Assembly: GCF_011089895.1 (NCBI RefSeq)
Contig: NZ_JAANAT010000001.1
Span: 806,001 to 870,000, forward strand
Direction of reading: 5' to 3'
DNA: 64,000 bases
Source: Mucilaginibacter inviolabilis
Lineage (GTDB): Bacteria; Bacteroidota; Bacteroidia; Sphingobacteriales; Sphingobacteriaceae
The notes under the pieces were generated by a model that saw only the letters and a program-made list of their open reading frames with translations, searched no databases and had not been told where the DNA came from. A program made the translations under genes and the position numbers. Positions 6,186 to 45,100 of the stretch are shown here, in pieces. Each line of letters opens with the position of its first letter. The first letter of the stretch is position 1.

Positions 6186-7145
6186 TTAGGGGAGCAGTAT
6201 TTTGTCGATCACATGCACTATTCCATTTTTAGCTATATTATCTGTTTTACTCAATAATATATAGTCGGTGTTAGATTTACCTTTTATTTTTAATCCACCC
6301 GTTGCGTTAAGTGTTATAGTCCCAGAAGCTAACGTTTGTACTTCAGCTTTATCCTTGAAATCGGATGAAAAAAGTCTCCGATTGATCAAATGGTATTTTA
6401 ACAGGTTTGACAGTTTTGCAGGATCAGCAGCTTTTATAGCATTGATGGTTGGATACCCTGCATCAATGAATGCCTGATTGGAAGGTGCAAAAATTGTATA
6501 CGGCCCTTTTTCAGACAGTATGGTAGATAAGTTTGCTCTTTTAATAGCTTCATCTAAATAGGTCAAATTGGGTGTGTTCTTAATTATTGCCATTACATCA
6601 ATAACAGGAACGGTTAATATTGTATTAATAACTTGAATTGTTCCGTTTGTTGCCTTCTTACTAAGTTTTACTGTTGGTATCCCGTTAACAGAGATCTTAT
6701 CATCATCTGTTCTTGTTACATATAGCTTTTCGCTGCTTTGTGTCGCGAATTCAGTATTCGCAGCAATAGGAATCGAATTCACCGGAAGAATATGGTACTG
6801 CAGAATGGAAGATAAAATACGTTTGTCGGCAGCATTTACTGCAGATTCATCTTTATAACCTGCAGCTTTGAAAGCCGTATTTGTGGGTGCGAATACAGTG
6901 AATGTTCCTTTGCCTTTTAAAGTCGTGGCTAAATCAGTCTTGATTAATGCAGCTCCAAGCAAACTAAAATTAGGATCGGCTGAAATTGTTTCAGAAATAG
7001 AAAAGGTTTTGGCTGGCGGGGGTACAGGTGCTGGATTGCTCTTTTTGTTTGTGCTACATGCCGTAACAATAAAACAAATGGAGCCAATTAGCCCTAAAGT
7101 ACATCTGTTTAAATTTTTTACTGAATAGTTTTTTCTTATTTTCAT
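6186..7145 (-). CDS. Fasciclin (FAS1) repeat lipoprotein
   Basis: A 319-residue secreted lipoprotein on the minus strand. The lipobox FIVTAC gives lipidated Cys30, followed by a Ser/Pro/Lys-rich spacer and two FAS1 domains at about residues 48-180 and 184-319. Both show the typical motifs: FTVFAPTNTAF and YTIFAPSNQAF for the first conserved box, and LQYHILP and LKYHLINR for the second. FAS1 domains mediate adhesion or extracellular-matrix contacts in many organisms; in Bacteroidota such lipoproteins are often surface exposed. The gene converges on the receptor unit and diverges from the polyketide locus. It has its own terminator just downstream. I see no clear -7 box upstream. Nothing links it functionally to its neighbours. 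Confidence 0.92.
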   Translation of the reverse strand: MKIRKNYSVKNLNRCTLGLIGSICFIVTACSTNKKSNPAPVPPPAKTFSISETISADPNFSLLGAALIKTDLATTLKGKGTFTVFAPTNTAFKAAGYKDESAVNAADKRILSSILQYHILPVNSIPIAANTEFATQSSEKLYVTRTDDDKISVNGIPTVKLSKKATNGTIQVINTILTVPVIDVMAIIKNTPNLTYLDEAIKRANLSTILSEKGPYTIFAPSNQAFIDAGYPTINAIKAADPAKLSNLLKYHLINRRLFSSDFKDKAEVQTLASGTITLNATGGLKIKGKSNTDYILLSKTDNIAKNGIVHVIDKILLP

Positions 7146-7259
7146 TTTAATTGCTTTTTTAGGGGAGACGGATCTAGACTTAATAAGTCCTAAAAGAATT
7201 TGAAAATATTTTTAAATTATATTTATCAAGGCTGCCCATTATATACTAGGTTACTATGA

Positions 7260-7385
7260 TTAGCATGAATGAATTAAAATAAACATGAGCAATTCAAACG
7301 AAGCGGACATGAGTAGTAACAGATAGAAAGAGATTAGCATAAATCCAGCGACATACAGGATTGTTTCATTAATTTGTTTTATCAT
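7260..7385 (-). CDS. Possible small hydrophobic protein (41 aa), doubtful
   Basis: An ATG-to-TAA frame of 41 codons lies upstream of, and on the same strand as, the fasciclin gene. After a short polar start (MIKQINETI) nearly all residues are hydrophobic, including LYVAGFMLISFYLLLLM and FELLMFILI, so it could be a one-pass membrane peptide. No ribosome site, promoter or homologue can be recognised. Short hydrophobic frames arise by chance in AT-rich DNA, so this may not be a gene. Confidence 0.22.
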   Translation of the reverse strand: MIKQINETILYVAGFMLISFYLLLLMSASFELLMFILIHSC

Positions 7386-7740
7386 TTTATAAATTCATCA
7401 ATTGTTGAGATTAATTAGAGTGATTTTATGAAGGGTAAGCCTTCGGAATTTTTAATTCAATTTTTGAAGTTCAATCCGACATGATCACATTCTTTTTGGT
7501 CATCTTTCTTTTTAAATAATGTTGTAGCAGGTAAAGACATATTAAAATCATACTTCATTTTATTGTATGACGCTCTAATATTTAAAAGTCCTATAGAAAG
7601 GGGTGGAATATTTTGAATTAATTAAAAGCCCCTTTTTAGATGGAGATTTTATGCAATACTTCGTCGGATTCAAGGGAGCGTAAGGTCATAAAATCCGAAT
7701 ATTTTCTTGGGAGATTTGAGTAGAATAGCGTTTTGAGAAA

Positions 7741-7779
7741 CAGTTCGAGAATGACACGATGCATTTCTCGACTGTTTTT
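7741..7779 (+). terminator. Orphan terminator-like hairpin
   Basis: CAGTTCGAGAA (7741-7751) pairs with TTCTCGACTG (7765-7774), with one bulged T, around a 13-base loop, and is followed directly by five T (7775-7779). The form is that of an intrinsic terminator on the plus strand, yet no plus-strand gene ends just before it. It could end a small RNA, be the remnant of a lost gene, or attenuate transcription into the synthase genes. Confidence 0.4.
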
Positions 7780-8092
7780 AAACATACTACATACTTAATT
7801 TAATTAAATATAGTCTTTCTTCAAATAAGTCTTTCCAAATCACTAACTCTTTTTGACCCACAGTGTAACCTGTCTATTTCAAAGTCAACTTCTTTACCCT
7901 ATAAGATCGGCAATGGCATGTATCTTGGATAAGTTTATTCTTCAAAAGCGCAGCAAAATTAAATTATATGTTGGTGTTGTTTAATACTGGTTGCGACTGT
8001 GTTCTATAGTATAATTGCTTGTTTTAATTTGATAACTCGCATAGCCAAAATCACTGTTTACATAAAACTGTTCCCGTTCGCATAGTTAACTT

Positions 8093-8121
8093 TTTGCCTA
8101 CTATTTAAACACATAATATTG
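8093..8121 (+). promoter_or_regulatory. Weak promoter candidate for the polyketide operon
   Basis: TTTG at 8093-8096 and TAATATTG at 8114-8121 (one mismatch to TAnnTTTG) are 17 bases apart, slightly less than the usual 19-21. They lie about 95 bases before the first synthase start codon. Presented only as the best match in the region. Confidence 0.2.
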
Positions 8122-8216
8122 TATAAGAGCTTATTGTAGAAAATAGAATTGGAGTCAATTCTTGTGGGGTATTTACCCTTTTTAATAAGGATATACAGCA
8201 TTAATGAGTGTATTAG

Positions 8217-11200
8217 ATGAAAGAAAAACTGAAAAGCAACTCGAGCGCAAGCGCCAGACCTTATAAAGATGAAATTGCTATAATTGGTATGTCATGCAGA
8301 TTTCCGGGAGCGGAGAATTATCATGACTTCTGGAATAATTTGGTAAACGAAAACTTCAGTGTTACAGAAATTCCCGAAAGTCGCTGGAATTGGAGAGATT
8401 ACTACGGTGATCCTAATCAGGAAAATAACAAAACCAACAGCAAATGGGGGGGATTTATAAATGATATAGACAAGTTTGATCCGCTGTTTTTTAACATCTC
8501 GCCTAAAGAAGCAAAATATATTGACCCTCAGCACCGGATATTTTTAGAAGCAGCTTGGCATGCAGTTGAAGATGCGGGATATAGTATCGGAAGTTTGTCT
8601 GGTAAGAAAATTGGTGTTTATGTTGGGGTTTCTAAAAATGACTACGCAGAAATGTTACAGTCAACTCACCAGGAAATAAGCTCTTTCGTTTCTACAGGTA
8701 CGGTGCATTCTATTTTAGCTAACCGGGTATCCTATCTGTTGGATATTTGTGGTAAAAGCGAAGTAGTTGATACCGCTTGTTCCAGTTCGCTGGTGGCATT
8801 GCACAATGCAATTCGTGATATACGTTTAGGCGGATGTGAAGGGGCTCTGGTGGGTGGAGTGAATGCGCTAATAACACCTACGATGTATCTTTCGCACGGT
8901 AAATCGGGCATGTTATCGTCAGAGGGAAAATGTAAAACATTTGATGAACGTTCCGATGGATATGTGCGTGCTGAAGGTGTAGGATGTGTTTTTATTAAAC
9001 CATTAAGTAAGGCATTAGCCGATAATGACACCATTCTGGGTATTATTAAAGGAACGGCCGTAAATCATAATGGTCGTTCAAATTCTCTTACATCGCCAAG
9101 CGCACGTTCGCAATCAGAAGTTATAGATGCTGCGCTTGAGGATGCCGGATTAGAAGCCGGGCATGTAAGTTATATTGAAGCGCATGGCACCGCTACTCCT
9201 TTAGGTGATCCTATTGAAGTAAGTGCCCTGAAAAAGGTTTTCAGTGGCTATTCAAAAGATGACGACATTCATTGCGGATTAGGCGCTGTAAAAACAAATA
9301 TTGGTCATTTGGAAAGTGCTGCAGGAATGGCTGGTCTTTTCAAGGTGTTGCTTTGTATGCGCCACAAAAAATTACCAGCCCTGTTACATTATCAAAAGCT
9401 CAATCCATATATTGATTTAGCAGGTAGTCCACTCTATGTTAATAATCATTTAACAGATTGGAAGAAATCTGCCAAAGGATTGCAAAATGGACCGCTTACA
9501 GCTGGTATTAGTTCTTTTGGAATGGGTGGCGTAAATGCGCATGTGATATTACAGGCATTTGAAGATAGTCGCCCCCAGCCTTTAATTTCATCTCAATCAT
9601 ATTTTCTAATACCACTATCTGCTAAAACGCTAAAACAGTTAAAAGTATATGCTAATAATATCGCAGTCTTTTTAAAAGGGCCAGGCCAAACACTGCCATT
9701 ACAGGATATTGCCTTTACGATGCAAACCGGCAGAGATGCCATGAATTGCAGAGTTGCATTTAAAGTGTCAACCGTAACTGAATTGATAGATCAACTACAG
9801 GAATATGTGACCAATGATAAACATATTATTACCGAAGACAGGCAAATAGAGCAATGGTTAACAGGCGCTGACATAGATTGGAACGATCCTTCGGTTGGTT
9901 TAACCAGTAAGCGGATAGCCTTACCTGGTTATCCGTTTGAGCGGCGCACATGTTGGATGGATGCACCCGCCGATCAGAAAAATACAGTTGAAACTCCTTT
10001 GCTTGAGTTCAAAAATAACGACCAAAAACGTCAATGGCAATATCAAAGCTTATTACGTAAAACAGATTATTTTGTAAGGGATCATGTAGTACAAGGCGAG
10101 TGCATGTTGCCCGGTGTTGCATATCTGGAAATAGCACGTGCCGTTGCAGAACAAGCTTGCGGCCGCAGTGTAAATGAATTAAATGATATTTGCTGGATCC
10201 ATGCGGTATTGGTAAAGGAAATGAATATGCCTTTACATGTAAACCTGCAACCAGTTGATAAAGGTTTTTCATTTGAAATAACCACTACTGATGGGGTACA
10301 TGCCAATGGAAATATCCAGCTGGAAACTAATAATACTATACCTGCATCTATTGATCTTCGAAAGATCAAAGAACGGTGTAAAGTTCACAAAACCCCGGGT
10401 GAAATATATGCTGCGCTAAGCAAAGAAGGTTTAGGCTATCTGGAAACCTTTAAAACAATAAAAGAAGGTTTTTTTGCAGAAGCAGAGGCATTGTGCTATC
10501 TGGAGCCCACAATAAGGGAGCACAAATTATCTGAAAAAGTATGGGATCCATCCCTGTTGGATGGTGTTTTTCAAGCAGTTGTAGGCTTATGTATATGGGG
10601 AGGTGTGGAGCACAGTCATCAGTTGTTGCCATTTTATTTAAAATCTATCCGTTGTTACGGAAGTCCGGCTATTGCACGTTATGCTTATGTACGGAAATCA
10701 AGCACTTATGCAGATGGCAATCATTATTCATTTGATATGTTTTTATGCGATGAGAATGGCAACGTTATTATTGCATTTGATGAATTTATAAAACGCGCCT
10801 ATAAAACAGCAACTACCAGTATAATAACTGAAACAACGATAACACCGGCCGTTGTTGAAAGTCTGCATTATACCACTGCCTGGTTAGAGCGTCCATTGGG
10901 CATTCTGAATGAACGTCCAAAATCCCTCATTCTATTTGATATAGATGAGCATTTATATGAGGAAGTAAAAAAACAGTATCCTCATACCGTTCCTGTGTTA
11001 TTATTGCCAGGCGATACTTACCAGAAGAAAGATAAAAACACATACTACATTAATCCCGCCGATGCAGCATCTTTCAAGCTCTTGGTCAACGATCTGATAG
11101 AAGATAATATCCAGATTGACAATTGGGTATATAGATGGAGTATGGAGAAGAGCGAAGAAATTACAGAAAATATTCAGGATGTATATGTCTTATTATACCT

Positions 11201-33086: not shown

Positions 33087-33852
33087 TATGCAGTACATTA
33101 ACAAGAACAAAAAATTCGTAAAAGCAAGTGCCATATCTATGCTGAAGCTGGAGGCTCTTGCAAGTACAAATGCTTTACCTCGTCATTCTGGTTTACTGTT
33201 TGAATTGATACAAGAGGGGTTAACTGAAAGTATTCCGCACCTTCAACCCGGAGAGAAGTTCCATATTATGGGAATAAATGCTGGTAATGAAGAACTATAC
33301 CAGGAATTCGCAATTTTCGAAGACCAATTAACACTCATTTTAGATGCGAAACTGATAGTACCAACAGGTAGTTGTGACATGGTTATTAGTGTTGATGTAT
33401 TAAGTCAACCTCATCAGCTCTCTCATCTTAAAACATACTTGAAGCAAGATGGGATACTCGTACTACAAGAATCTGCAATAAATGAAGATACCATTTACTT
33501 GCTGGGCGAGGACGGATACGAGCAAATGGCCGTTTATTTATTAGAAAACGGTACTTGGATTATACTGGCAAAAAGCAATGGAATTATACAAATACAGGAA
33601 ATAGAATCTATTCCGGCCTCTCAATTCGGAAATACTTCTGATGCTGAGTGTTTAACGTCACGACTGATAAACATTGCTGCTGCTATTATTGAATTGCCGG
33701 AAGATGAATTTGATACTTCAATGCAGTTCAAAGATTTTGGATTTGACTCCATCCTGGGGGTAGAACTAATTAATAATATTAACGAAGCGTTAAGTATTAC
33801 ATTAAAAGCAACCGATCTCTATAACTACCCAAATCTTACTCAATTAGCAAAC
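29952..33852 (+). other. Module 6: KS-KR-(decayed MT)-ACP, split over two genes
   Basis: KS6 (Cys7418) is followed by the usual post-KS linker and then directly by KR6 (about residues 8040-8289; loop from Gly8069, GGAGGIG; Tyr8210 in QANYAAG). No DH lies between them. The first gene ends there; the second begins with a shortened methyltransferase-like stretch and ACP7 (Ser221 of gene 2, GFDS). Expected outcome is a beta-hydroxy group, probably unmethylated. Confidence 0.85.
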
Positions 33853-36800
33853 TATATACACGATCAATATCAGGGTGTATTAGTAAAACCTGTCGTACCA
33901 ATTGGAGTTGGTGTAAATAACAATACTGAAAAAGTGGCGCCCACTTTTTCAAATCCAGCTTTAAATAGCATAGCTATTATAGGTATCAGTGGGCAATTTG
34001 GTTCAGCTAATGATTTAGCCGCTTATTGGGATGCGCTAAAAGAAGGAAGAAACCTGGTTGAGATTATACCTTCTAATAAATGGAACAACGATTCACAACA
34101 TAATTTACCGGAAGTAAAATGGGCGAGTTGTTTAAAAGATGTTGATTGTTTTGATCCGTTATTTTTTAAACTTTCTGGAACAGAAGCTGAAATGATGGAT
34201 CCTAAACAGCGGTTGTTTCTTGAACATTGCTGGAAAGCGTTTGAAGATGCAGCTGTTAATCCGGATACCTTATCATCAACAAAGTGTGGGGTATATGTAG
34301 GTGTTGGCCAAAGTGATTACGCGGCCAGAACAGAAGGTACTTTACCATCAGCACTTTGGGGTAATTCCAGCGCCATACTGGCATCGCGGATATCTTATTT
34401 TCTTAATCTCAAGGGGCCGGCGATAGCCGTCGATACGGCTTGTTCCAGTTCTCTGGTAGCTATGGATATGGCTTTCACCAGCTTACAAAGAGGAGATACC
34501 GATCTGGCAATTGCAGGTGGCGTTAATATTATTAACACAGCTAATGCTTATACCATGGCTAACAGAGCCGGTATGCTATCTGCTGATGGGCGTTGTTACA
34601 CTTTTGACGACCGGGCCAACGGTTTTGTAATGGGTGAAGGTGTGGGCGTAATCGTGATGAAAAGACTGGCAGATGCAGAACGGGATAATGATCGTATTTA
34701 TGGCGTGATTAGAGGCTGTTTAACTAACCAGGATGGAGCTACCAATGGCATAACAGCTCCAAGTGTAATATCCCAACAAGAGTTGGAAAAAGAAGTATAC
34801 GAACGATTTAATATAAATCCTGAAACTATTACTTATGTGGAAGCACATGGCACTGGTACCAGTTTAGGAGATCCGATTGAGTTTGAAGCATTAACCACTT
34901 CTTTTCGAGCTTTTACAACTAAGCAACAGTTTTGCAGTCTTGGAAGTGTAAAAACCAATATTGGTCATACCCTGGAAGCGGCAGGAGTTGCGGGTTTGTT
35001 GAAAGTTTTGCTGGCCATGCAACATCAGCAATTGCCTCCAACTATCAATTACAAACAGCATAACCCACTTATTAAATTAGAGGGTAGTCCCTTTAAGATA
35101 CAAACTAAATTAGCTGACTGGGTAACTCCAGAAAACTCCCCCCGACGCGCTGCACTTAGCAGTTTTGGGTTTAGTGGCACTAATGCACATATGGTAATAG
35201 AAGAATACATTCCGACTAAAACTCCTTTATATCAAAGCTTTGGATCTGTAATCTTTTTGTTATCTGCTAAAAACAGAGATCAATTACAGACACAAGCCAG
35301 ACAATTTTGTCAATACCTGCAAACAAAAGCTATATCTAATATTCATGATATAGCCTACACCTTGCAAATCGGGAGAGTGGCAATGGAAGAACGTTTAGCC
35401 ATAGTTGCAGATTCTGTTAGTGAGCTACTTCAGCGTTTGACAGCCTTTTCAGAAAACCGGACAGATAAAGTTTTTACAGGGAATATCAGAAAAAAACAAG
35501 GACTGTTAAAAGGTGAGGCTGATCAGACATTTATTCAACAGGCTATAGCAGATAAGGCGCTGGATACTTTAGCACAGCTTTGGGTAAACGGCAAAAATAT
35601 CGACTGGAAAATGCTTTATTCGGAGCAGTTACCTAATAAGATCAGTTTACCTACTTATCCATTTGCTAGAGAGCGTTATTGGATAACCTCTGATAATAAT
35701 AATCATACAACGACTGTTAATAACTTTATATACCCTTTATTACATTGTAATTGCTCAACCCTGAGCGAGCAAAAATTCAGCAGTATTTATACTGGGGGCG
35801 AGTTTTTTTTACGAGATCATCAAGTATTAGGGGATCAGGTATTACCAGGAGTAACGTATCTGGAAATGGCACGTGCTGCGGGAGAGTATGCAGGGGGGGG
35901 CAGGATCACGCAATTAAGAGATATCAACTGGCTGCAACCGATTAAGGTAAATGAATCAGCAGTAGAAGTGCATATCAGTCTTTTTGCAACAGATGAGGCA
36001 ATAGGGTATGAGATCTATACAGAGGCAGGCGATCGGCAATTGCACGGACAGGGGATCCTTTTAAGCGGAGCTCAGCCAGAACCTGCGCGTCATGATATCG
36101 GGGCGTTAAGATCCAGCCTGTCTCATACAGAACAAGGAGATAGTTATTACGAAAAATTCCGCTCTGTTGGTTTGCATTACGGGGAGAGCTTCCAGGGCAT
36201 CCGGGAGATCAGTTATAGCGAAGAGTCTGCCTTATCACGGATTGCACTACCACATCAGGCAGGTTTCGTATTGTCACCAGGACTGCTGGATAGTGCGCTT
36301 CAAACCTGCATGGGGATAAGCTTGGCCTCAGGCGAGCAGCAGCTGATGCTGCCTTTTAGTGTTCGTGAGGTTACTATTTATCAGGAGTTACCGGAAGAAG
36401 TATGGTGTTATGCGCGCCAGGACCGGAGCGGTAAACACTCGGGTAGTTATGATCTGGAGCTGCTTAATGCTTCAGGCGAAGTATTGGTTCAGTTTACCGA
36501 GCTGGTATTATTATCGCTGGAAAACAATACGGAGAAGACATCACCGGAAACAACCAGCATCGGTATGCAGCTGTATACTTCAGGCTGGCAAATGGCAAAA
36601 TCAGAGACAACAAACCAGACCGAATCTTTACCCACATTGGTATTATTGGCCGGTGGCCCGGCATTGTTAGCAGATAAACTGCAGGAAGCCCTGGCATGCG
36701 AAGTAAAAACAATCACTGCATCACAGCCGGAGACTTTCTTTATAGCGATACAGGAAGAGTTGCAAAAGAGCTGGCAGCAAAAGCCGGGTATGGAGGTACA

Positions 36801-39800
36801 GGTGGTTTGTACCCATGCCGATTACCTGGATTATGGGTTTATCTCGGGGCTATTGCAAACAGCAAGTCAGGAAAACCCCAAAATACGGGGAAAGGTTGTA
36901 GTAGTAGACAGCCTGAGGATGAATGATGTAGAAGCATTAACGCTTATCCTATCCTCAGAGCAAAATAGTAAAGATCAGGAAGTTCGGTACCTGTCAGGCG
37001 TTCGTGAGGTAAAAGGGATAGCACCATTAAATCCCATAGAAAAGCCAAATGGTCTCAGTATTAAAGCCGATGGTGTTTACCTGATCACAGGAGGCAATGG
37101 CGGTTTAGGTGAGCACTTTGCTCAGCACATCAGCAAAGTATCCGGGGCGCGGGTAGTGCTCGCGGGAAGAAGTGAATTGAATCAAAGCAAACAGGCATTA
37201 ATAAATAGTCAAAAAAACACCGCCTATTGCCGCTGCGATGTAAGCAAAGCCGAAGAAGTGACCACCCTGATCAGTACGATCATGGAAACGTATGGCCGGC
37301 TGGATGGTATTATTCATAGCGCAGGTGTTATCCGGGATAGTTATATCCTGAATAAAACAGCAAAAGAGATACAGGAAGTATTTGGTGCCAAGGTAAAGGG
37401 AGCGAGAAACCTGGACAATGCCACATCGTCAATAGCACTTGACTTTATGGTTTACTGTTCGTCGTTGGCGGGTGTATTTGGGAATGCGGCGCAGGCGGAC
37501 TATGCCTCGGCAAATGCCTGGCTGGATAACTATGCACATTACCGGGAAACGGAGCGGAAGGCAGGCAAACGGCATGGGCAAACGCTGAGTATCAACTGGC
37601 CATTATGGGCATCGGGTGGTATGCAGATCGGGGCAGAGAACGAGCGTTATATGGCCTATCATTATGGTCTGTTACCCATGCCGACATCGGAGGGGTTAGA
37701 TGCGTTTGAAAAGTTATTAAACAATGCAACGGTACAGGGTATCGTATTATATGGGTATCATGATCAACTATCGGCCTTAACTGGTCAACCCACTCAAGCA
37801 ACAAGATCCAACATAACTGCGCCGGTTGCTGATGAGGCACTGTATATAGCTACTTTAAAATATTTAGGAGACTTGTTGGCGAGTGCGCTAAAGATACCGG
37901 TAGCCAAGATGCAGCCCGATGTTTCTTTTGAGCAATTTGGTATTGACTCTACCATGATCGTTGGATTAACCAATCGTTTAGAAGAAGTATTTGGTAAGGT
38001 TTCCAGGACACTTTTTTTTGAATGCCAGACACTCGATGAACTATCCGTTTATTTTTTAACTACGCAAAGCAACAGGCTACTGGAATTAACAAGTATTAGT
38101 CCCGTATCAATAACTACAATAAATATCCATACAGATAAAATTAAGGAAGTCAAAAAGTCACGGTTTTTACATAGCCGGTCATCGTTAGAAACGCATCATT
38201 ACGCTGTAAATAAATCATCTGAAGTAATAAAAGATATTGCCATTATCGGGATCAGCGGCCGTTATCCAGGCGCAAAGAATCTGACGGAGTTCTGGGAAAA
38301 TCTGAAAGCGGGTAAGGACAGTATTACAGAAATTCCCTCAACCAGGTGGGAAATGACAGGTTTCTACGATGAAGAAAAAGGTAAACCTGGGAAAAGCTAC
38401 AGCAAATGGGGAGGGTTTATGGACGATATTGACAAATTTGACCCTCTATTTTTTAATATATCTCCACGTGAAGCTGCGTTGATGGATCCGCAAGAACGCT
38501 TGTTCCTGCAAACAGCCTGGGAAACCATGGAAGACGGTGGCTATACCCGAACCAGGCTGCAGGAAATGGATCATGATGAAAATGGACTGGCGGCTCAGGT
38601 AGGTGTTTATGTGGGAGTAATGTACGAAGAGTATCAATTATTTGGCCCAGAAGAAACAGTCAAAGGGAATCTCGTTTCATTATTGGGCAATCCTAGCGGA
38701 ATAGCTAACCGGGTGTCATACTTTCTGAATCTTCATGGCCCAAGCACCGCTGTTGATACGATGTGTTCTTCGTCTTTAACAGCAATACACCTGGCTTGTA
38801 AAGATCTCCAGTCGGGCGAAATACAAATGGCTATTGCAGGCGGTGTAAATGCAAGTATCCATCCTAATAAGTATCTTATACTCAGTCAAGGCGGTTTTGC
38901 CTCAAGTACAGGTCGTTGTGAAAGTTTTGGTGAAGGAGGAGATGGTTATGTACCCGGTGAGGGCGTGGGCGCGGTATTATTAAAACCACTTCAACAGGCC
39001 ATAGCCGATGGCGACCGGATATACGGCGTTATCAAAGGAACCGCAGTTAACCATGGTGGTAAAACCAATGGTTATACGGTACCTAATCCAAAAGCACAAA
39101 CAGCGGTGATCAAAGCTGCCATGAAAAAGGCAGGTGTTCAGGCCGAAGATATCAGTTATATAGAAGCCCATGGCACCGGTACGAGTTTGGGAGACCCGAT
39201 AGAAGTAGCCGGATTAAGCAAAGCTTTTGGAACCACGAGCAAACAGTTCTGTAGTCTGGGATCAGTGAAATCGAATATTGGTCATTGTGAATCGGCAGCA
39301 GGTATATCCGGGCTAACGAAGGTATTGTTACAACTGCAACACCGTCAACTGGTGCCATCGCTGCATTCGGCTGTTTTAAACCCAAATATCGATTTTGAAA
39401 ATAGTCCCTTCAAAGTACAGCAGGAGCTAGCAGCCTGGAAATCACCGACAGGTAAAGCTCGCATAGCCGGTATCAGCGGTTTTGGAGCTGGCGGCAGCAA
39501 TGCACATATCATTATTGAGGAATACACTGGTAAATCAGCAACGGTCTATCAAAATACAGATCCGGTAATCATTGTATTATCAGCACGTGATAGCACGCGT
39601 TTGCAGGAGCATGTATTCAATCTGAAAAAACATATAGAGACTTATCCTGAGATCAATATTCATGAGGTAGCTTACACGTTACAAACCGGTCGTGAGGCGA
39701 TGGAAGAGCGACTGGCATTTATTGCAGCTGATAAGGAAGAGTTGTTGCAGCATTTGAGTAATTACCTGGAAAACAAAATACAGGAGCTGTTGACCGGTAA

Positions 39801-40143
39801 TATCCGAAAAGATGCCCCTTGCTTTTTATTGGAAGGCAAAGCAGGTAAAGCATACCTGGAAAGTGCAATTGGTGAAAAGGAAGGTCGTTCATTGGCACAA
39901 TTATGGACTAACGGTATTCACATTGACTGGAATCTGTTGTATACCGATGAACGTCCATCGCTGGTCAGCTTACCAACTTACCCTTTTGCTAAAGACTATT
40001 GCTGGTTCGAGAAATCCACGGCCGTATCTCCGGTAACAGCATCCAGACTACATCCTTTATTACACAGTAACACTTCTAACCTTAAAGAGCAACCACTACA
40101 TCCACTTTTACATACCTATAATTCAGAAAAACAACTTAATTAA
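33088..40143 (+). CDS. Trans-AT polyketide synthase, end of module 6, module 7 and first part of module 8 (2351 aa)
   Basis: Starts one base after the preceding stop codon, in a different frame. Residues 1-185 are a methyltransferase remnant: LQPGEKFHIMGINAG aligns with LQPGEKIRILEVGAG of the intact cMT in the third synthase, and GSCDMVISVDVL with GNYDIVIGANVV, but the S-adenosylmethionine glycine motif is gone and the domain is about half length. Then come ACP7 (Ser221), KS7 (Cys452), DH7 (His911, Asp1068), KR7 (loop from Gly1335, Tyr1472), ACP8 (Ser1621) and KS8 (Cys1893, DTMCSSS). The protein ends about 200 residues after KS8, a few residues into a DH domain (LHPLLHSNTSNLKEQ), followed by a second, similar LHPLLH motif and TAA at 40141. 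The following gene continues in the same frame and supplies the rest of that DH. So both ends of this protein lie inside modules. Confidence 0.96.
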   Translation: MQYINKNKKFVKASAISMLKLEALASTNALPRHSGLLFELIQEGLTESIPHLQPGEKFHIMGINAGNEELYQEFAIFEDQLTLILDAKLIVPTGSCDMVISVDVLSQPHQLSHLKTYLKQDGILVLQESAINEDTIYLLGEDGYEQMAVYLLENGTWIILAKSNGIIQIQEIESIPASQFGNTSDAECLTSRLINIAAAIIELPEDEFDTSMQFKDFGFDSILGVELINNINEALSITLKATDLYNYPNLTQLANYIHDQYQGVLVKPVVPIGVGVNNNTEKVAPTFSNPALNSIAIIGISGQFGSANDLAAYWDALKEGRNLVEIIPSNKWNNDSQHNLPEVKWASCLKDVDCFDPLFFKLSGTEAEMMDPKQRLFLEHCWKAFEDAAVNPDTLSSTKCGVYVGVGQSDYAARTEGTLPSALWGNSSAILASRISYFLNLKGPAIAVDTACSSSLVAMDMAFTSLQRGDTDLAIAGGVNIINTANAYTMANRAGMLSADGRCYTFDDRANGFVMGEGVGVIVMKRLADAERDNDRIYGVIRGCLTNQDGATNGITAPSVISQQELEKEVYERFNINPETITYVEAHGTGTSLGDPIEFEALTTSFRAFTTKQQFCSLGSVKTNIGHTLEAAGVAGLLKVLLAMQHQQLPPTINYKQHNPLIKLEGSPFKIQTKLADWVTPENSPRRAALSSFGFSGTNAHMVIEEYIPTKTPLYQSFGSVIFLLSAKNRDQLQTQARQFCQYLQTKAISNIHDIAYTLQIGRVAMEERLAIVADSVSELLQRLTAFSENRTDKVFTGNIRKKQGLLKGEADQTFIQQAIADKALDTLAQLWVNGKNIDWKMLYSEQLPNKISLPTYPFARERYWITSDNNNHTTTVNNFIYPLLHCNCSTLSEQKFSSIYTGGEFFLRDHQVLGDQVLPGVTYLEMARAAGEYAGGGRITQLRDINWLQPIKVNESAVEVHISLFATDEAIGYEIYTEAGDRQLHGQGILLSGAQPEPARHDIGALRSSLSHTEQGDSYYEKFRSVGLHYGESFQGIREISYSEESALSRIALPHQAGFVLSPGLLDSALQTCMGISLASGEQQLMLPFSVREVTIYQELPEEVWCYARQDRSGKHSGSYDLELLNASGEVLVQFTELVLLSLENNTEKTSPETTSIGMQLYTSGWQMAKSETTNQTESLPTLVLLAGGPALLADKLQEALACEVKTITASQPETFFIAIQEELQKSWQQKPGMEVQVVCTHADYLDYGFISGLLQTASQENPKIRGKVVVVDSLRMNDVEALTLILSSEQNSKDQEVRYLSGVREVKGIAPLNPIEKPNGLSIKADGVYLITGGNGGLGEHFAQHISKVSGARVVLAGRSELNQSKQALINSQKNTAYCRCDVSKAEEVTTLISTIMETYGRLDGIIHSAGVIRDSYILNKTAKEIQEVFGAKVKGARNLDNATSSIALDFMVYCSSLAGVFGNAAQADYASANAWLDNYAHYRETERKAGKRHGQTLSINWPLWASGGMQIGAENERYMAYHYGLLPMPTSEGLDAFEKLLNNATVQGIVLYGYHDQLSALTGQPTQATRSNITAPVADEALYIATLKYLGDLLASALKIPVAKMQPDVSFEQFGIDSTMIVGLTNRLEEVFGKVSRTLFFECQTLDELSVYFLTTQSNRLLELTSISPVSITTINIHTDKIKEVKKSRFLHSRSSLETHHYAVNKSSEVIKDIAIIGISGRYPGAKNLTEFWENLKAGKDSITEIPSTRWEMTGFYDEEKGKPGKSYSKWGGFMDDIDKFDPLFFNISPREAALMDPQERLFLQTAWETMEDGGYTRTRLQEMDHDENGLAAQVGVYVGVMYEEYQLFGPEETVKGNLVSLLGNPSGIANRVSYFLNLHGPSTAVDTMCSSSLTAIHLACKDLQSGEIQMAIAGGVNASIHPNKYLILSQGGFASSTGRCESFGEGGDGYVPGEGVGAVLLKPLQQAIADGDRIYGVIKGTAVNHGGKTNGYTVPNPKAQTAVIKAAMKKAGVQAEDISYIEAHGTGTSLGDPIEVAGLSKAFGTTSKQFCSLGSVKSNIGHCESAAGISGLTKVLLQLQHRQLVPSLHSAVLNPNIDFENSPFKVQQELAAWKSPTGKARIAGISGFGAGGSNAHIIIEEYTGKSATVYQNTDPVIIVLSARDSTRLQEHVFNLKKHIETYPEINIHEVAYTLQTGREAMEERLAFIAADKEELLQHLSNYLENKIQELLTGNIRKDAPCFLLEGKAGKAYLESAIGEKEGRSLAQLWTNGIHIDWNLLYTDERPSLVSLPTYPFAKDYCWFEKSTAVSPVTASRLHPLLHSNTSNLKEQPLHPLLHTYNSEKQLN
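33964..38052 (+). other. Module 7: KS-DH-KR-ACP
   Basis: KS7 about residues 293-708 of the second synthase (Cys452; distinctive SGQFG opening shared with KS11). DH7 about 885-1150 (His911 in HQVLGDQVLP, Asp1068 in LLDSALQ). KR7 about 1305-1560 (GGNGGLG loop from 1335, Tyr1472, B-type Asp in GVIRDSY). ACP8 Ser1621 (GIDS). All residues needed for an alkene are present. DH7-KR7 is nearly identical to DH8-KR8. Confidence 0.9.
35761..37784 (+). repeat. Direct repeat, DH-KR cassette copy 1
   Basis: About 2.02 kb, repeated at 40150-42173 with a constant offset of 4389 bases. By eye I count seven mismatches in the 900 bases 36061-36960. The copy begins at the codon that matches the start codon of the third synthase gene. 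Confidence 0.93.
38230..40095 (+). repeat. Direct repeat, KS plus linker copy 1
   Basis: KS8 with its post-KS linker recurs as KS9 at 42616-44481 (offset 4386). The C-terminal half and linker are almost unchanged (39547-39770 looks identical), while a patch around 38641-38880 differs clearly, giving a mosaic. Confidence 0.85.
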
Positions 40144-40149
40144 GTTATT

Positions 40150-42173
40150 ATGAGCGAGCAAAGATTTAGCAGTATTTATACGGGGGCAGAGTTTTTTTTA
40201 CAAGATCATCAAGTATTAGGAGATCAGATATTACCAGGAGTAACGTATCTGGAAATGGCACGTGCGGCAGGAGAGTATGCAGGTGGAGCCAGGGTCACGC
40301 AAATAAGGGATATCAACTGGCTGCAACCGATTAAGGTAAATGAATCAGCAGTGGAAGTGCATATCAGTCTTTTTGGAACAGATGAGGCAATAGGGTATGA
40401 GATCTATACAGAGGCAGGCGATCGGCAATTGCACGGACAGGGGATCCTTTTAAGCGGAGCTCAGCCAGAACCTGCGCGTCATGATATCGGGGCGTTAAGA
40501 TCCAGCCTGTCTCATACAGAACAAGGAGATAGTTATTACGAAAAATTCCGCTCTGTTGGTTTGCATTACGGGGAGAGCTTCCAGGGCATCCGGGAGATCA
40601 GTTATAGCGAAGAGTCTGCCTTATCACGGATTGCACTACCACATCAGGCAGGTTTCGTATTGTCACCAGGACTGCTGGATAGTGCGCTTCAAACCTGCAT
40701 GGGGATAAGCTTGGCCTCAGGCGAGCAGCAGCTGATGCTGCCTTTTAGTGTTCGTGAGGTTACTATTTACCAGGAGCTGCCGGAAGAAGTATGGTGTTAT
40801 GCGCGCCAGGACCGGAGCGGTAAACACTCAGGTAGTTATGATCTGGAGCTGCTTAATGCTTCAGGCGAAGTATTGGTTCAGTTTACCGAGCTGGTATTAT
40901 TATCGCTGGAAAACAATACGGAGAAGACATCACCGGAAACAACCAGCATCGGTATGCAGCTGTATACTTCAGGCTGGCAAATGGCAAAATCAGAGACAAC
41001 AAACCAGACCGAATCTTTACCCACATTGGTATTATTGGCCGGTGGCCCGGCATTGTTAGCAGATAAACTGCAGGAAGCCCTGGCATGCGAAGTAAAAACG
41101 ATCACTGCATCACAGCCGGAGACTTTCTTTATAGCGATACAGGAAGAGTTGCAAAAGAGCTGGCAGCAAAAGCCGGGTATGGAGGTACAGGTGGTTTGTA
41201 CCCATGCCGATTACCTGGATTATGGGTTTATCTCGGGGCTATTGCAAACAGCAAGTCAGGAAAATCCCAAAATACGGGGAAAGGTTGTAGTAGTAGACAG
41301 CCTGAGGATGAATGATGTAGAAGCATTAACGCTTATCCTATCCTCAGAACAAAATAGTAAAGATCAGGAAGTTCGGTACCTGTCAGGCGTTCGTGAGGTA
41401 AAAGGGATAGCACCATTAAATCCCATAGAAAAGCCAAATGGTCTCAGTATCAAAGCCGATGGTGTTTACCTGATCACAGGAGGCAATGGCGGTTTAGGTG
41501 AGCACTTTGCTCAGCACATCAGCAAAGTATCCGGAGCGCGGGTAGTACTCGCAGGAAGAAGTGAGTTAGACCAAAGCAAACAAGCATTAATAAATAGTCA
41601 AAAAAACACCGCCTATTGCCGCTGCGATGTAAGCAAAGCAGAAGAAGTAACATCACTGATCAGTACGATCATGGAAAGGTACGGACGGCTGGATGGTATT
41701 ATTCATAGCGCAGGTGTTATCCGGGATAGTTATATCCTGAATAAAACAGCAAAAGAGATACAGGAAGTATTTGCGGCTAAAGTAGGGGGGGCGAAAAACC
41801 TGGACAATGCCACATCGTCAATAGCACTTGACTTTATGGTTTACTGTTCGTCGTTGGCGGGAGTATTTGGTAATGCAGCACAGGCGGACTATGCCTCGGC
41901 AAATGCCTGGCTGGATAACTATGCGCATTACCGGGAAACGGAGCGCAAGGCAGGCAAACGGCATGGGCAAACGCTGAGTATCAACTGGCCATTATGGGCA
42001 TCGGGTGGTATGCAGATCGGGGCAGAGAACGAGCGTTATATGGCCTATCATTATGGTCTGTTACCCATGCCGACATCGGAGGGGTTAGATGCGTTTGAAA
42101 AGTTATTAAACAATGCAACGGTACAGGGTATCGTATTATATGGGTATCATGATCAACTATCAGCTTTAACTGG
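40150..42173 (+). repeat. Direct repeat, DH-KR cassette copy 2
   Basis: Second copy of 35761-37784, starting at the first base of the third synthase gene and ending in the KR-ACP linker, where the two sequences diverge abruptly. Confidence 0.93.
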
Positions 42174-45100
42174 ACAGGCATCACCGGTAACCAAACTTGC
42201 CACAGCTGCACCGGTTGCTGTAGCTGATGAGGTGTTATATGCCGCTGCTGTAAAATACCTTCGTGGTTTATTAGCCGCAGTGTTGGGAATGGCGGAGGAG
42301 AAGCTGAAAGCGAAAGTTCATTTTGAAAACTACGGTATCGATTCCATCCAGATTACCCGGTTAACCAATCGTCTGGAAGAAGTATTTGGCCGTTTGCCAC
42401 GTACCTTATTTTTTGAATACCGGAACCTGGAAGAGCTTTGCCATTATTTTATACAAGATCATCAAGCAAGCCTGTTAATCCTTACTGGTTTAAATACAAG
42501 CAAGCCCGTTAAAACCAATGCGCTAAGAATCGCACAGGAAAATAAACTTAGTGAGTTGGCAAATAAAAAGGCTGTTCAGACAAAGTCCGAAACACTAAGC
42601 AAAGCCATACCGAACAAAGATATTGCCATTATCGGGATCAGCGGCCGTTATCCGGAGGCAAAGAATTTGAAGGAGTTCTGGGAGAACCTGAAAGCAGGTA
42701 AAGACAGTATCACAGAAATTCCCTCAACGAGGTGGGAAATGACAGGTTTCTACGATGAAGAAAAAGGCAAGCCAGGTAAGAGCTATAGCAAATGGGGTGG
42801 CTTTATGGATGATATTGACAAATTTGACCCTCTATTTTTTAATATATCTCCACGTGAAGCTGCGTTGATGGATCCGCAAGAACGCTTGTTCCTGCAAACC
42901 GCATGGGAAACCATAGAGGACGGTGGCTATACCCGAACCAGGCTGCAAGAAATCGACCATGATGAAAATGGATTGGATTCGCAGGTTGGTGTTTATGTAG
43001 GAGTGATGTATGAAGAGTATCCATTATTTGGCTTGGAGGAGAGATTAAAAGGAAACTTTATTAACCCGGGGGGCAGTCCGAGTGGTATAGCTAACCGGGT
43101 GTCATACTTTCTGAATCTTCATGGCCCAAGCACCGCTGTTGATACGATGTGTTCTTCGTCTTTAACAGCAATACACCTGGCTTGTGAAAGTATTCAAAAC
43201 GGTAGCTGTAAATTGGCTATTGCAGGTGGAGTAAATTTAAGTGTACATCCCAATAAATACCAGATGCTGAGTCAGGGCGGTTTTGCCTCAAGTACTGGTC
43301 GTTGTGAAAGTTTTGGTGAAGGAGGAGATGGTTATGTACCCGGTGAGGGCGTGGGCGCGGTATTATTAAAACCACTTCAACAGGCCATAGCCGATGGCGA
43401 CCGGATATACGGCGTTATCAAAGGAACCGCAGTTAACCATGGTGGTAAAACCAATGGTTATACGGTACCTAATCCAAAAGCACAAACAGCGGTGATCAAA
43501 GCCGCCATGAAAAAGGCAGGTGTTCAGGCCGAAGATATCAGTTATATAGAAGCCCATGGCACCGGTACAAGTTTGGGCGACCCGATAGAAGTAGCCGGAT
43601 TAAGCAAAGCTTTTGGAACCACGAGCAAACAGTTCTGCAGTTTGGGCTCAGTAAAATCCAATATCGGTCATTGTGAATCGGCAGCAGGTATATCCGGGCT
43701 AACGAAGGTATTGTTACAGTTGCAACACCGTCAGCTGGTGCCATCGCTGCATTCGGCAGTTTTAAACCCGAATATAGATTTTGAAAATAGCCCCTTTAAA
43801 GTACAGCAGGAACTGGCAGCCTGGGAGTTACCGAATGGTAAAGCCCGCATAGCCGGTATTAGCGGTTTTGGAGCTGGCGGCAGCAATGCACATGTCATTA
43901 TTGAAGAATACACGGGTAAACCAGCAACTGTTTATCAAAATACAGATCCGGTAATCATTGTATTATCAGCACGTGATAGCACGCGTTTGCAGGAGCATGT
44001 ATTCAATCTGAAAAAACATATAGAGACTTATCCTGAGATCAATATTCATGAGGTAGCTTACACGTTACAAACCGGTCGTGAGGCGATGGAAGAGCGACTG
44101 GCATTTATTGCAGCTGATAAGGAAGAGTTGTTGCAGCATTTGAGTAATTACCTGGAAAATAAAATACAAGATTTGTTAACCGGCAATATCCGGAAAGATG
44201 CCCCCGGCTTTTTACTGGAAGGCAAAGCAGGTAAGGCGTATCTGGAAAGCGCAATAAATGAAAAGGAAGGCCGTTCATTAGCACAGTTATGGACTAAAGG
44301 TATTCACATTGATTGGAATCTGTTGTATACCGATGAAAGTCCGTCGCTGATCAGCTTGCCAACATATCCTTTTGCCAGGGAACGTTGCTGGTTCCCGCAA
44401 TCCACGGCTGTATCTCTCGTAACAGCATCCAAACTACATCCTTTATTACACAGTAACACTTCTAACCTTAAAGAACAACAATTTACCAGCACTTATACAG
44501 GTAATGAACCATTTCTAACGAATCATCAGATAAAGGGAATAAGAACATTACCAGGTGTGGCTTATCTGGAAATAGCCCGGGCCGCGGCCGAAATAGCTGT
44601 TCAAGAAAAAATAACGCAATTAAAAGATATAGTCTGGTATAGTGCTATACAAGTCAAAGATATCCCTCAAACAGTTTATACCAGCTTGTATACAGTAAGT
44701 GATAATGTTGAATATGAAATATATACTAACAACGGAACGGAACAGTTGCACTGTAGTGGGACATTGGTTACAAAAACGCAGGCTATTCCTGAAAAACATG
44801 ATCTGGCCGCTATAAAGACAGGGTTAGTACATGAAAAAGAAGGGAGTGCCTGTTATGATTTGTTTAAAGCAGCAGGCTTGGAATATGGTAACAGCTTTCG
44901 AGGTATACAAACGTTGTATTATAACGAAGATGTGGCATTATCCAAAATTCATTTACCTATAGAAAAAGAATACGTATTTACTCCGGGTATATTGGATAGT
45001 GCTTTACAAACCTGTATTGGTATTCAGTTGGCTGAAGAAAAACAGGAAATACTATTGCCTTTTAGTGTAAGTGAAATCACGAATTACCTGCCATTGTCTG

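Follow-up and report, generated by a model that had tools for sequence, protein, structure and literature searches.

Does a single in-frame stop codon inside a dehydratase (DH) domain mark an error or a damaged polyketide synthase (PKS) gene, or is it a true border between two protein subunits? This question is raised by a 64,000-nucleotide stretch of the Mucilaginibacter inviolabilis genome (contig NZ_JAANAT010000001.1, positions 806,001 to 870,000; hereafter the window, to which all coordinates refer). Here gene 2, encoding a PKS subunit of 2351 aa (33088–40143, + strand), ends at a TAA codon at 40141–40143 (+ strand), and gene 3, encoding a PKS subunit of 6860 aa (40150–60732, + strand), begins at an ATG at 40150, in the same frame and after a gap of 6 nt. 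Two LHPLLH motifs lie upstream of the stop, with their HPLLH copies at 40051–40065 and 40099–40113, and this arrangement, first described in an earlier note, was confirmed by the sequence and its open reading frames (ORFs). We put at roughly 0.7 the joint probability that the TAA is a genuine intersubunit junction within one module of a trans-acyltransferase (trans-AT) PKS and that the HPLLH tail left on the upstream subunit docks on the downstream DH.

The stop separates a terminal ketosynthase (KS) from the N-terminal DH of the same module, in a module without an AT, which is the arrangement of a trans-AT split module. Gene 2 closes with the KS of the split module followed by the HPLLH tail, its C-terminal sequence being SRLHPLLHSNTSNLKEQPLHPLLHTYNSEKQLN and then the stop, and the DTMCS, EAHGTGT and KSNIGH motifs of this last KS are all intact. 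Behind the KS lies a flanking subdomain (RhiE-like linker, PF22336; gene-2 residues 2163–2229, 39574–39774, + strand), closed by an LPTYPFx5W motif (LPTYPFAKDYCW, 39970–40014, + strand; motif name from the accessible part of PMC11260071), and from this motif to the first HPLLH the distance is 12 residues. Gene 3 has the N-terminal sequence MSEQRFSSIYTGAEFFLQDHQVLGD and opens with MSEQRFSSIYTG, followed in Pfam by DH, ketoreductase (KR), acyl carrier protein (ACP) and KS. No AT family appeared in the Pfam tables of gene 2 and of gene-3 residues 1–2333, and AT-like genes (MFPGQGSQYKGMG and onwards) lie downstream, as in trans-AT synthases.

The DH is cut between its boundary motif HPLL, conserved and located ahead of the first strand according to the available text of PMC6697708, and its first core strand. 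Gene 3 starts four residues ahead of this strand (region RFSSIYT, 40162–40182, + strand, which is also the first strand in the AlphaFold model), its match to the Pfam family PKS_DH_N begins at profile position 14, and in our own profile of DH N-termini gene 2 covers positions 2–52 and gene 3 positions 48–149 (locus L100). As the catalytic His (gene-3 residue 20, in HQVLGDQILP; 40207–40209, + strand) and the catalytic Asp (gene-3 residue 177, in LLDSALQ; 40678–40680, + strand) are both encoded in gene 3, this DH lacks its boundary motif and its catalytic fold is whole. It had been noted that the DH start motif precedes the stop and the catalytic His follows it, which holds, with the correction that only the boundary motif HPLL is upstream and the whole catalytic core, including the Asp, belongs to gene 3.

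A sequence error or a recent nonsense mutation in an unsplit gene could be read from the single in-frame stop, the 6 nt to the next ATG and the repeated region, but the orthologous cluster is cut in the same way. Chryseobacterium paridis holds a cluster colinear with the window, composed of genes of 8603 aa and 6844 aa and then AT genes. Gene 3 and the 6844-aa gene share 59% identity over residues 1–6855, with residue 1 on residue 1, and residues 185–2346 of gene 2 match residues 6423–8603 of the 8603-aa gene at 60%. The terminal KS domains of gene 2 and of the 8603-aa gene are reciprocal best matches (69%). The orthologous DH is present in three of 173 Chryseobacterium genomes (G060, G584 and G607) and has its own gene start, at the same residue, in all three. 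The comparison with orthologues proposed in the earlier note therefore returned three split genes and no unsplit one among the genomes with the cluster. In 36 Mucilaginibacter congeners no orthologous cluster was found, the best KS identity being 42–43%. The window also contains an extra stretch without a C. paridis counterpart (~27.4–33.6 kb; gene-1 residues ~6404–8289 and gene-2 residues 1–185), whose start lies close to a KS/DH (HPLL) border and which shares 49% identity with residues 2–1820 of the split-DH gene of a Chitinophaga genome (G063); this suggests module shuffling at the KS/DH border.

Wider searches recovered the same cut in other clusters. GTDB genomes were scanned once with an alignment of the M. 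inviolabilis DH, yielding 67 loci in which 17 of 234 DH matches lay near a frame start, six of these 17 being cut by the locus end and left unjudged. Two further genes in these loci start at the same strand: in L029 (C. paridis) the upstream gene ends in EQKLHPLLHAYKN and a stop, and in L035 (Chitinophaga sp. CF118) in KLHPLLHFREDNNSIHPLLHKQEKAHTSY and a stop. A DNA pattern in which an over-long gap separates HPLLH from FLx(D/N)H was scanned against the 44 genomes behind the loci, 394 genomes of the Chitinophaga family, 173 of the genus Chryseobacterium, 395 of the phylum of M. inviolabilis and 299 of the Aquimarina family, sets which overlap slightly. Of the 33 distinct loci detected, 25 were chance matches and eight held a DH, which was split at the same place in seven (the window, G060, G584, G607, G063, G498 and G575); the sole unsplit DH, in L101 (Tolypothrix), had a longer spacer. 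A reversed control pattern matched seven of the 394 Chitinophaga family genomes and one of the 299 Aquimarina family genomes, hence raw matches are weak unless translated, and as the pattern demands HPLLH, junctions with an altered motif are invisible to it. The clusters with the cut beyond the orthologous one are those of a Chitinophaga and of two more Chryseobacterium genomes (G498 and G575).

Catalytic motifs are intact in all seven split DHs, with the exception that the Gly of HxxxG is a Glu in G063, and as far as conserved residues can indicate this supports the suggestion that the DH may be split but functional. Together with the same cut in six other genomes, the intact catalytic residues refute a recent disabling mutation or sequence error, which we consider hardly credible. 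Programmed stop read-through or frameshifting that yields a fused giant protein is just as difficult to believe. The downstream ORF is in the same frame in the window, G063, G498 and G575, as this would require, but in G060, G584 and G607 it lies in a different frame (spacers of 13, 10 and 22 nt, respectively), so that read-through is unable to join these ORFs. The ORFs of G498 are separated by two consecutive in-frame stops, and across the junctions the spacer length drifts and the stop is either TGA or TAA. Read-through, another of the possibilities raised at the outset, is thus excluded for G060, G584 and G607, unlikely for G498, and hence very unlikely in M. inviolabilis.

Plasmids gave no matches in a distant blastn search, and among 14 regions examined after plasmid protein searches none held a junction of the HPLLH-tail type, although L121 and L122 yielded junctions that resemble those with a dehydratase docking (DHD) domain. 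In L130 (Methylosinus) the DH proved unsplit, contrary to what its annotated start suggests. Three apparent "double" HPLL motifs in a set of 146 were rejected, being the YPFI or YPFV of LPTYPF, and a count of 80 with HPLL in the same set came from a loose search and was set aside. In L120 (from 19524; Rhizobium lusitanum plasmid) and L129 (from 39486; Klebsiella grimontii plasmid) the PKS frames are broken within or after the KS in a frameshift-like manner, unlike a subunit junction.

The two HPLLH motifs of the window sit in an 18-nt direct repeat of 83% identity, and their doubling can be traced through the modules on either side. DNA self-comparison showed that a KS and linker tract (38260–40098, + strand) is homogenised with the next module (~42.65–44.48 kb), identity to the stretch ending at 44484 being mostly 80–100% per 60-nt bin, and that a DH-KR-ACP tract (40149–42190, + strand) is homogenised with the previous module (35.76–37.8 kb), with mostly 95–100% identity between 40149–~42190 and 35760–~37800. 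The KS that ends gene 2 shares 87% identity with the KS after it, in gene 3, against 69% with its orthologue; over residues 1–794, gene 3 agrees at 90% with a gene-2 module and at 49% with the orthologue. As paralogue identity exceeds orthologue identity, neighbouring modules have been homogenised in the M. inviolabilis lineage, up to the junction from both sides. The flanking modules were overwritten by neighbouring copies and the 51-nt junction was spared; for the segment 40099–40149, the best ungapped partner elsewhere in the window reaches only 29/50.

By sequence comparison, the first motif (LHPLLHSNTSNLKEQ, 40048–40092, + strand), with its HSNTSNLKEQ, is part of the KS tract common to the next module (44.4 kb). 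The second motif and tail end (LHPLLHTYNSEKQLN, 40096–40140, + strand), which contains LHPLLHTYN and has a TTATT-ATG context, corresponds to the lone Chryseobacterium tail LHPLLHAYKN, an alignment made by eye and unscored. The doubled motif is explained, on this comparison, by a first HPLLH imported through homogenisation and a second that is the ancestral tail, and the earlier idea of a junction between two DH beginnings holds in essence. G063 likewise has two copies, and since the region read contains no paralogue so close to its KS (best 67%), homogenisation fails to account for the double motif there. In a quick tree of 71 DH cores (LG+G4), a single clade for the split DHs was rejected (p-AU, the approximately unbiased test, 5.5e-5), with four changes of which at least three are forced by starred branches. 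Either the cut arose repeatedly, or the junction persisted and the DH downstream of it was exchanged by recombination, as in the window.

Two further observations concern the modules of the window. The adjacent ~4.39 kb module pair at 35.76–44.48 kb is mostly 95–100% identical over DH-KR-ACP and mostly 80–100% over the KS, with a sharp fall to 53–75% across ~0.4 kb ahead of the KS, a pattern of patchy gene conversion. The DH from 48751 (gene-3 residues ~2868–2915) reads SASKIPNIKELSAS in its HxxxG....PG region, where the catalytic His is lost, and is probably inactive.

The KS and flanking subdomain close gene 2 and the DH-KR-ACP of the same module opens gene 3, the chain being cut directly past HPLL, such that HPLLH stays at the C-terminus of the KS subunit and the first core strand of the DH begins the next one. 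For the function of the tail we propose that it would bind in trans on the downstream DH, at the site filled by HPLL in unsplit modules, and that this binding would help subunit 2 to pair with subunit 3 and keep the KS of the module beside its DH. Docking of the tail at the HPLL site of the gene-3 DH, helping the subunits to pair, is the role we infer to be most likely. Comparison of G498 with G575 shows silent changes only in the tail GKLHPLLHQVK and in the stop behind it (TGA vs TAA), whereas four replacements are found in seven codons, GAA to AGT, shortly upstream of the tail. DH codon counts for genome pairs that include G584 were one codon out of register and were excluded.

Structure prediction is consistent with this placement. 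AlphaFold was run twice on the read-through chain, with both HPLLH copies and with copy 2 alone. With both copies, mean pLDDT was 84.5 and pTM 0.81, the ten-residue block holding copy 1 scoring 88 and the two following blocks, which hold copy 2, scoring 52 and 56. With copy 2 alone, mean pLDDT was 87.2 and pTM 0.84, with 86 for the copy-2 block and values below 50 for residues 14–19, around the stop. In these models either HPLLH copy can be placed at the HPLL site. Foldseek matches re-examined by VIA-align included 7zsk and 7zmf (Z 38.3, root-mean-square deviation 1.6, 266 aligned). The DHs 5e1v (PksL) and 5kku (difficidin), which resemble that of gene 3 as split-module DHs at a subunit N-terminus, align only from model residue 64, that is gene-3 residue 2.

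The split could instead be real and harmless, with the HPLLH tail a remnant without a docking role and the subunits meeting via KS and DH surfaces alone. The late start of the 5e1v and 5kku alignments fits this, as the core is then able to fold without HPLL, and so do the regions beyond HPLLH, which vary in sequence and length. However, HPLLH and residues to the stop are kept in all seven junctions, and although the pattern required HPLLH, L029 and L035 were first found without it; the exclusively silent changes between the G498 and G575 tails also argue against a remnant. We regard this explanation as unlikely, though it deserves to be kept in view.

The proposed junction was compared with the docking classes already described. 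In its accessible part, the review PMC9113145 gives two for trans-AT synthases: helical pairs of ~25 residues, and the DHD at KS|DH junctions, where the KS is without a flanking subdomain. In the account given there, the DHD of gladiolin GbnD4-GbnD5 occupies the same KS|DH border, with an element only on the KS side, a C-terminal tail, and no extension of the DH. By this analogy the M. inviolabilis junction would most likely work like a DHD, through a KS-subunit tail bound to the DH of the next subunit. That it is itself a DHD of the gladiolin kind is improbable in our view, as its KS is of the elongating type and keeps the flanking subdomain, the DH is followed by a KR, and HPLLH is present in the tail. 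PF22336 was detected in the terminal KS region of M. inviolabilis (77.6 bits) and in the three other members scanned, L141 (C. paridis), L035 and L147 (G498), all of which end in HPLLH and a few residues. It is absent at all three DHD-like junctions (L121, L122 and L072), where HPLL is found on neither side. The tail past the W of LPTYPFx5W measures 42 residues, against ~70 residues added in the DHD, and the DH is without an extension. Membership of the DHD class, judged by its published description, was rejected on the presence of PF22336.

Other known systems differ in further respects. Four-helix-bundle pairs (VirA-VirFG, macrolactin; available text of PMC9113145) are also used at split modules, KS|DH included, but only four residues of gene 3 precede the first strand, so that it has no N-terminal docking segment, whereas in such pairs ~25 helical residues lie at the C-terminus of one partner and the N-terminus of the other; this type of docking was rejected. 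At L073 (the same junction as L075), L062, L055 and L090, ~40 residues precede a complete HPLL-DH and the KS keeps its linker, the upstream tails having a helical look by eye only; in L041 and L084 the upstream tails are similar to the L073 type and the DH is without HPLL. Dehydrating bimodules, as far as the accessible part of PMC8456789 describes them, combine a non-elongating KS with a KS-DH-ACP half and are usually split after the second KS, whereas here the terminal KS motifs are intact and a KR lies behind the DH, which excludes this type as well as speaking against a DHD. Cremimycin CmiP3/CmiP2 (available text of PMC11284099; fusion structure 6k97) also has a DH divided over two consecutive PKS proteins, but that system is cis-AT and actinobacterial, and the cut in M. 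inviolabilis detaches the boundary motif only. The junction is a new variant within KS|DH split junctions which fits neither described docking class, differing from the DHD by its flanking subdomain and from helical pairs by the lack of a DH extension. We found no description of an HPLL tail at a KS|DH junction in the literature, subscription papers being mostly outside the search.

With slightly better than even confidence, we propose this variant as a third class of trans-AT KS|DH junction, in which the flanking subdomain is kept and the HPLL peptide of the DH itself forms the C-terminus of the KS subunit, from where it would complete the next DH in trans; such a junction would occur in at least three clusters and persist while recombination swaps both flanking modules. 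Several points weigh against the docking junction and must be set beside it. Tail binding is a predicted interaction, and its AlphaFold placement is biased by alignments to unsplit DHs and was judged from confidence scores. Since the alignments of 5e1v and 5kku set in no earlier than the first strand, the DH core is able to fold without HPLL. The evidence of selection comes from ~20 codons in one genome pair, the junction type is known from only three clusters, and the split gene of G607 has an additional frame break (1979 aa). In that genome (L150, 15699–15774), the split-DH gene stops after 1979 aa and resumes as more ORFs, which are genome or assembly frameshifts.

At split modules an assembly line is put together from separate proteins, and only a few pairing elements are on record for KS|DH borders. 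So short a peptide, already belonging to the DH, would make a compact tag with which to re-pair subunits, and the LPTYPFx5W site upstream of the tail has been used to build chimeric trans-AT synthases, according to the accessible part of PMC11260071. If the proposed class is real, the two motif copies in M. inviolabilis and Chitinophaga would form a bivalent tail, with higher affinity or serving both DHs of the dimer. For annotation, the locus is a warning that a stop codon in frame within a DH motif can mark a genuine border between subunits, and the window shows module homogenisation reaching right to a surviving junction.

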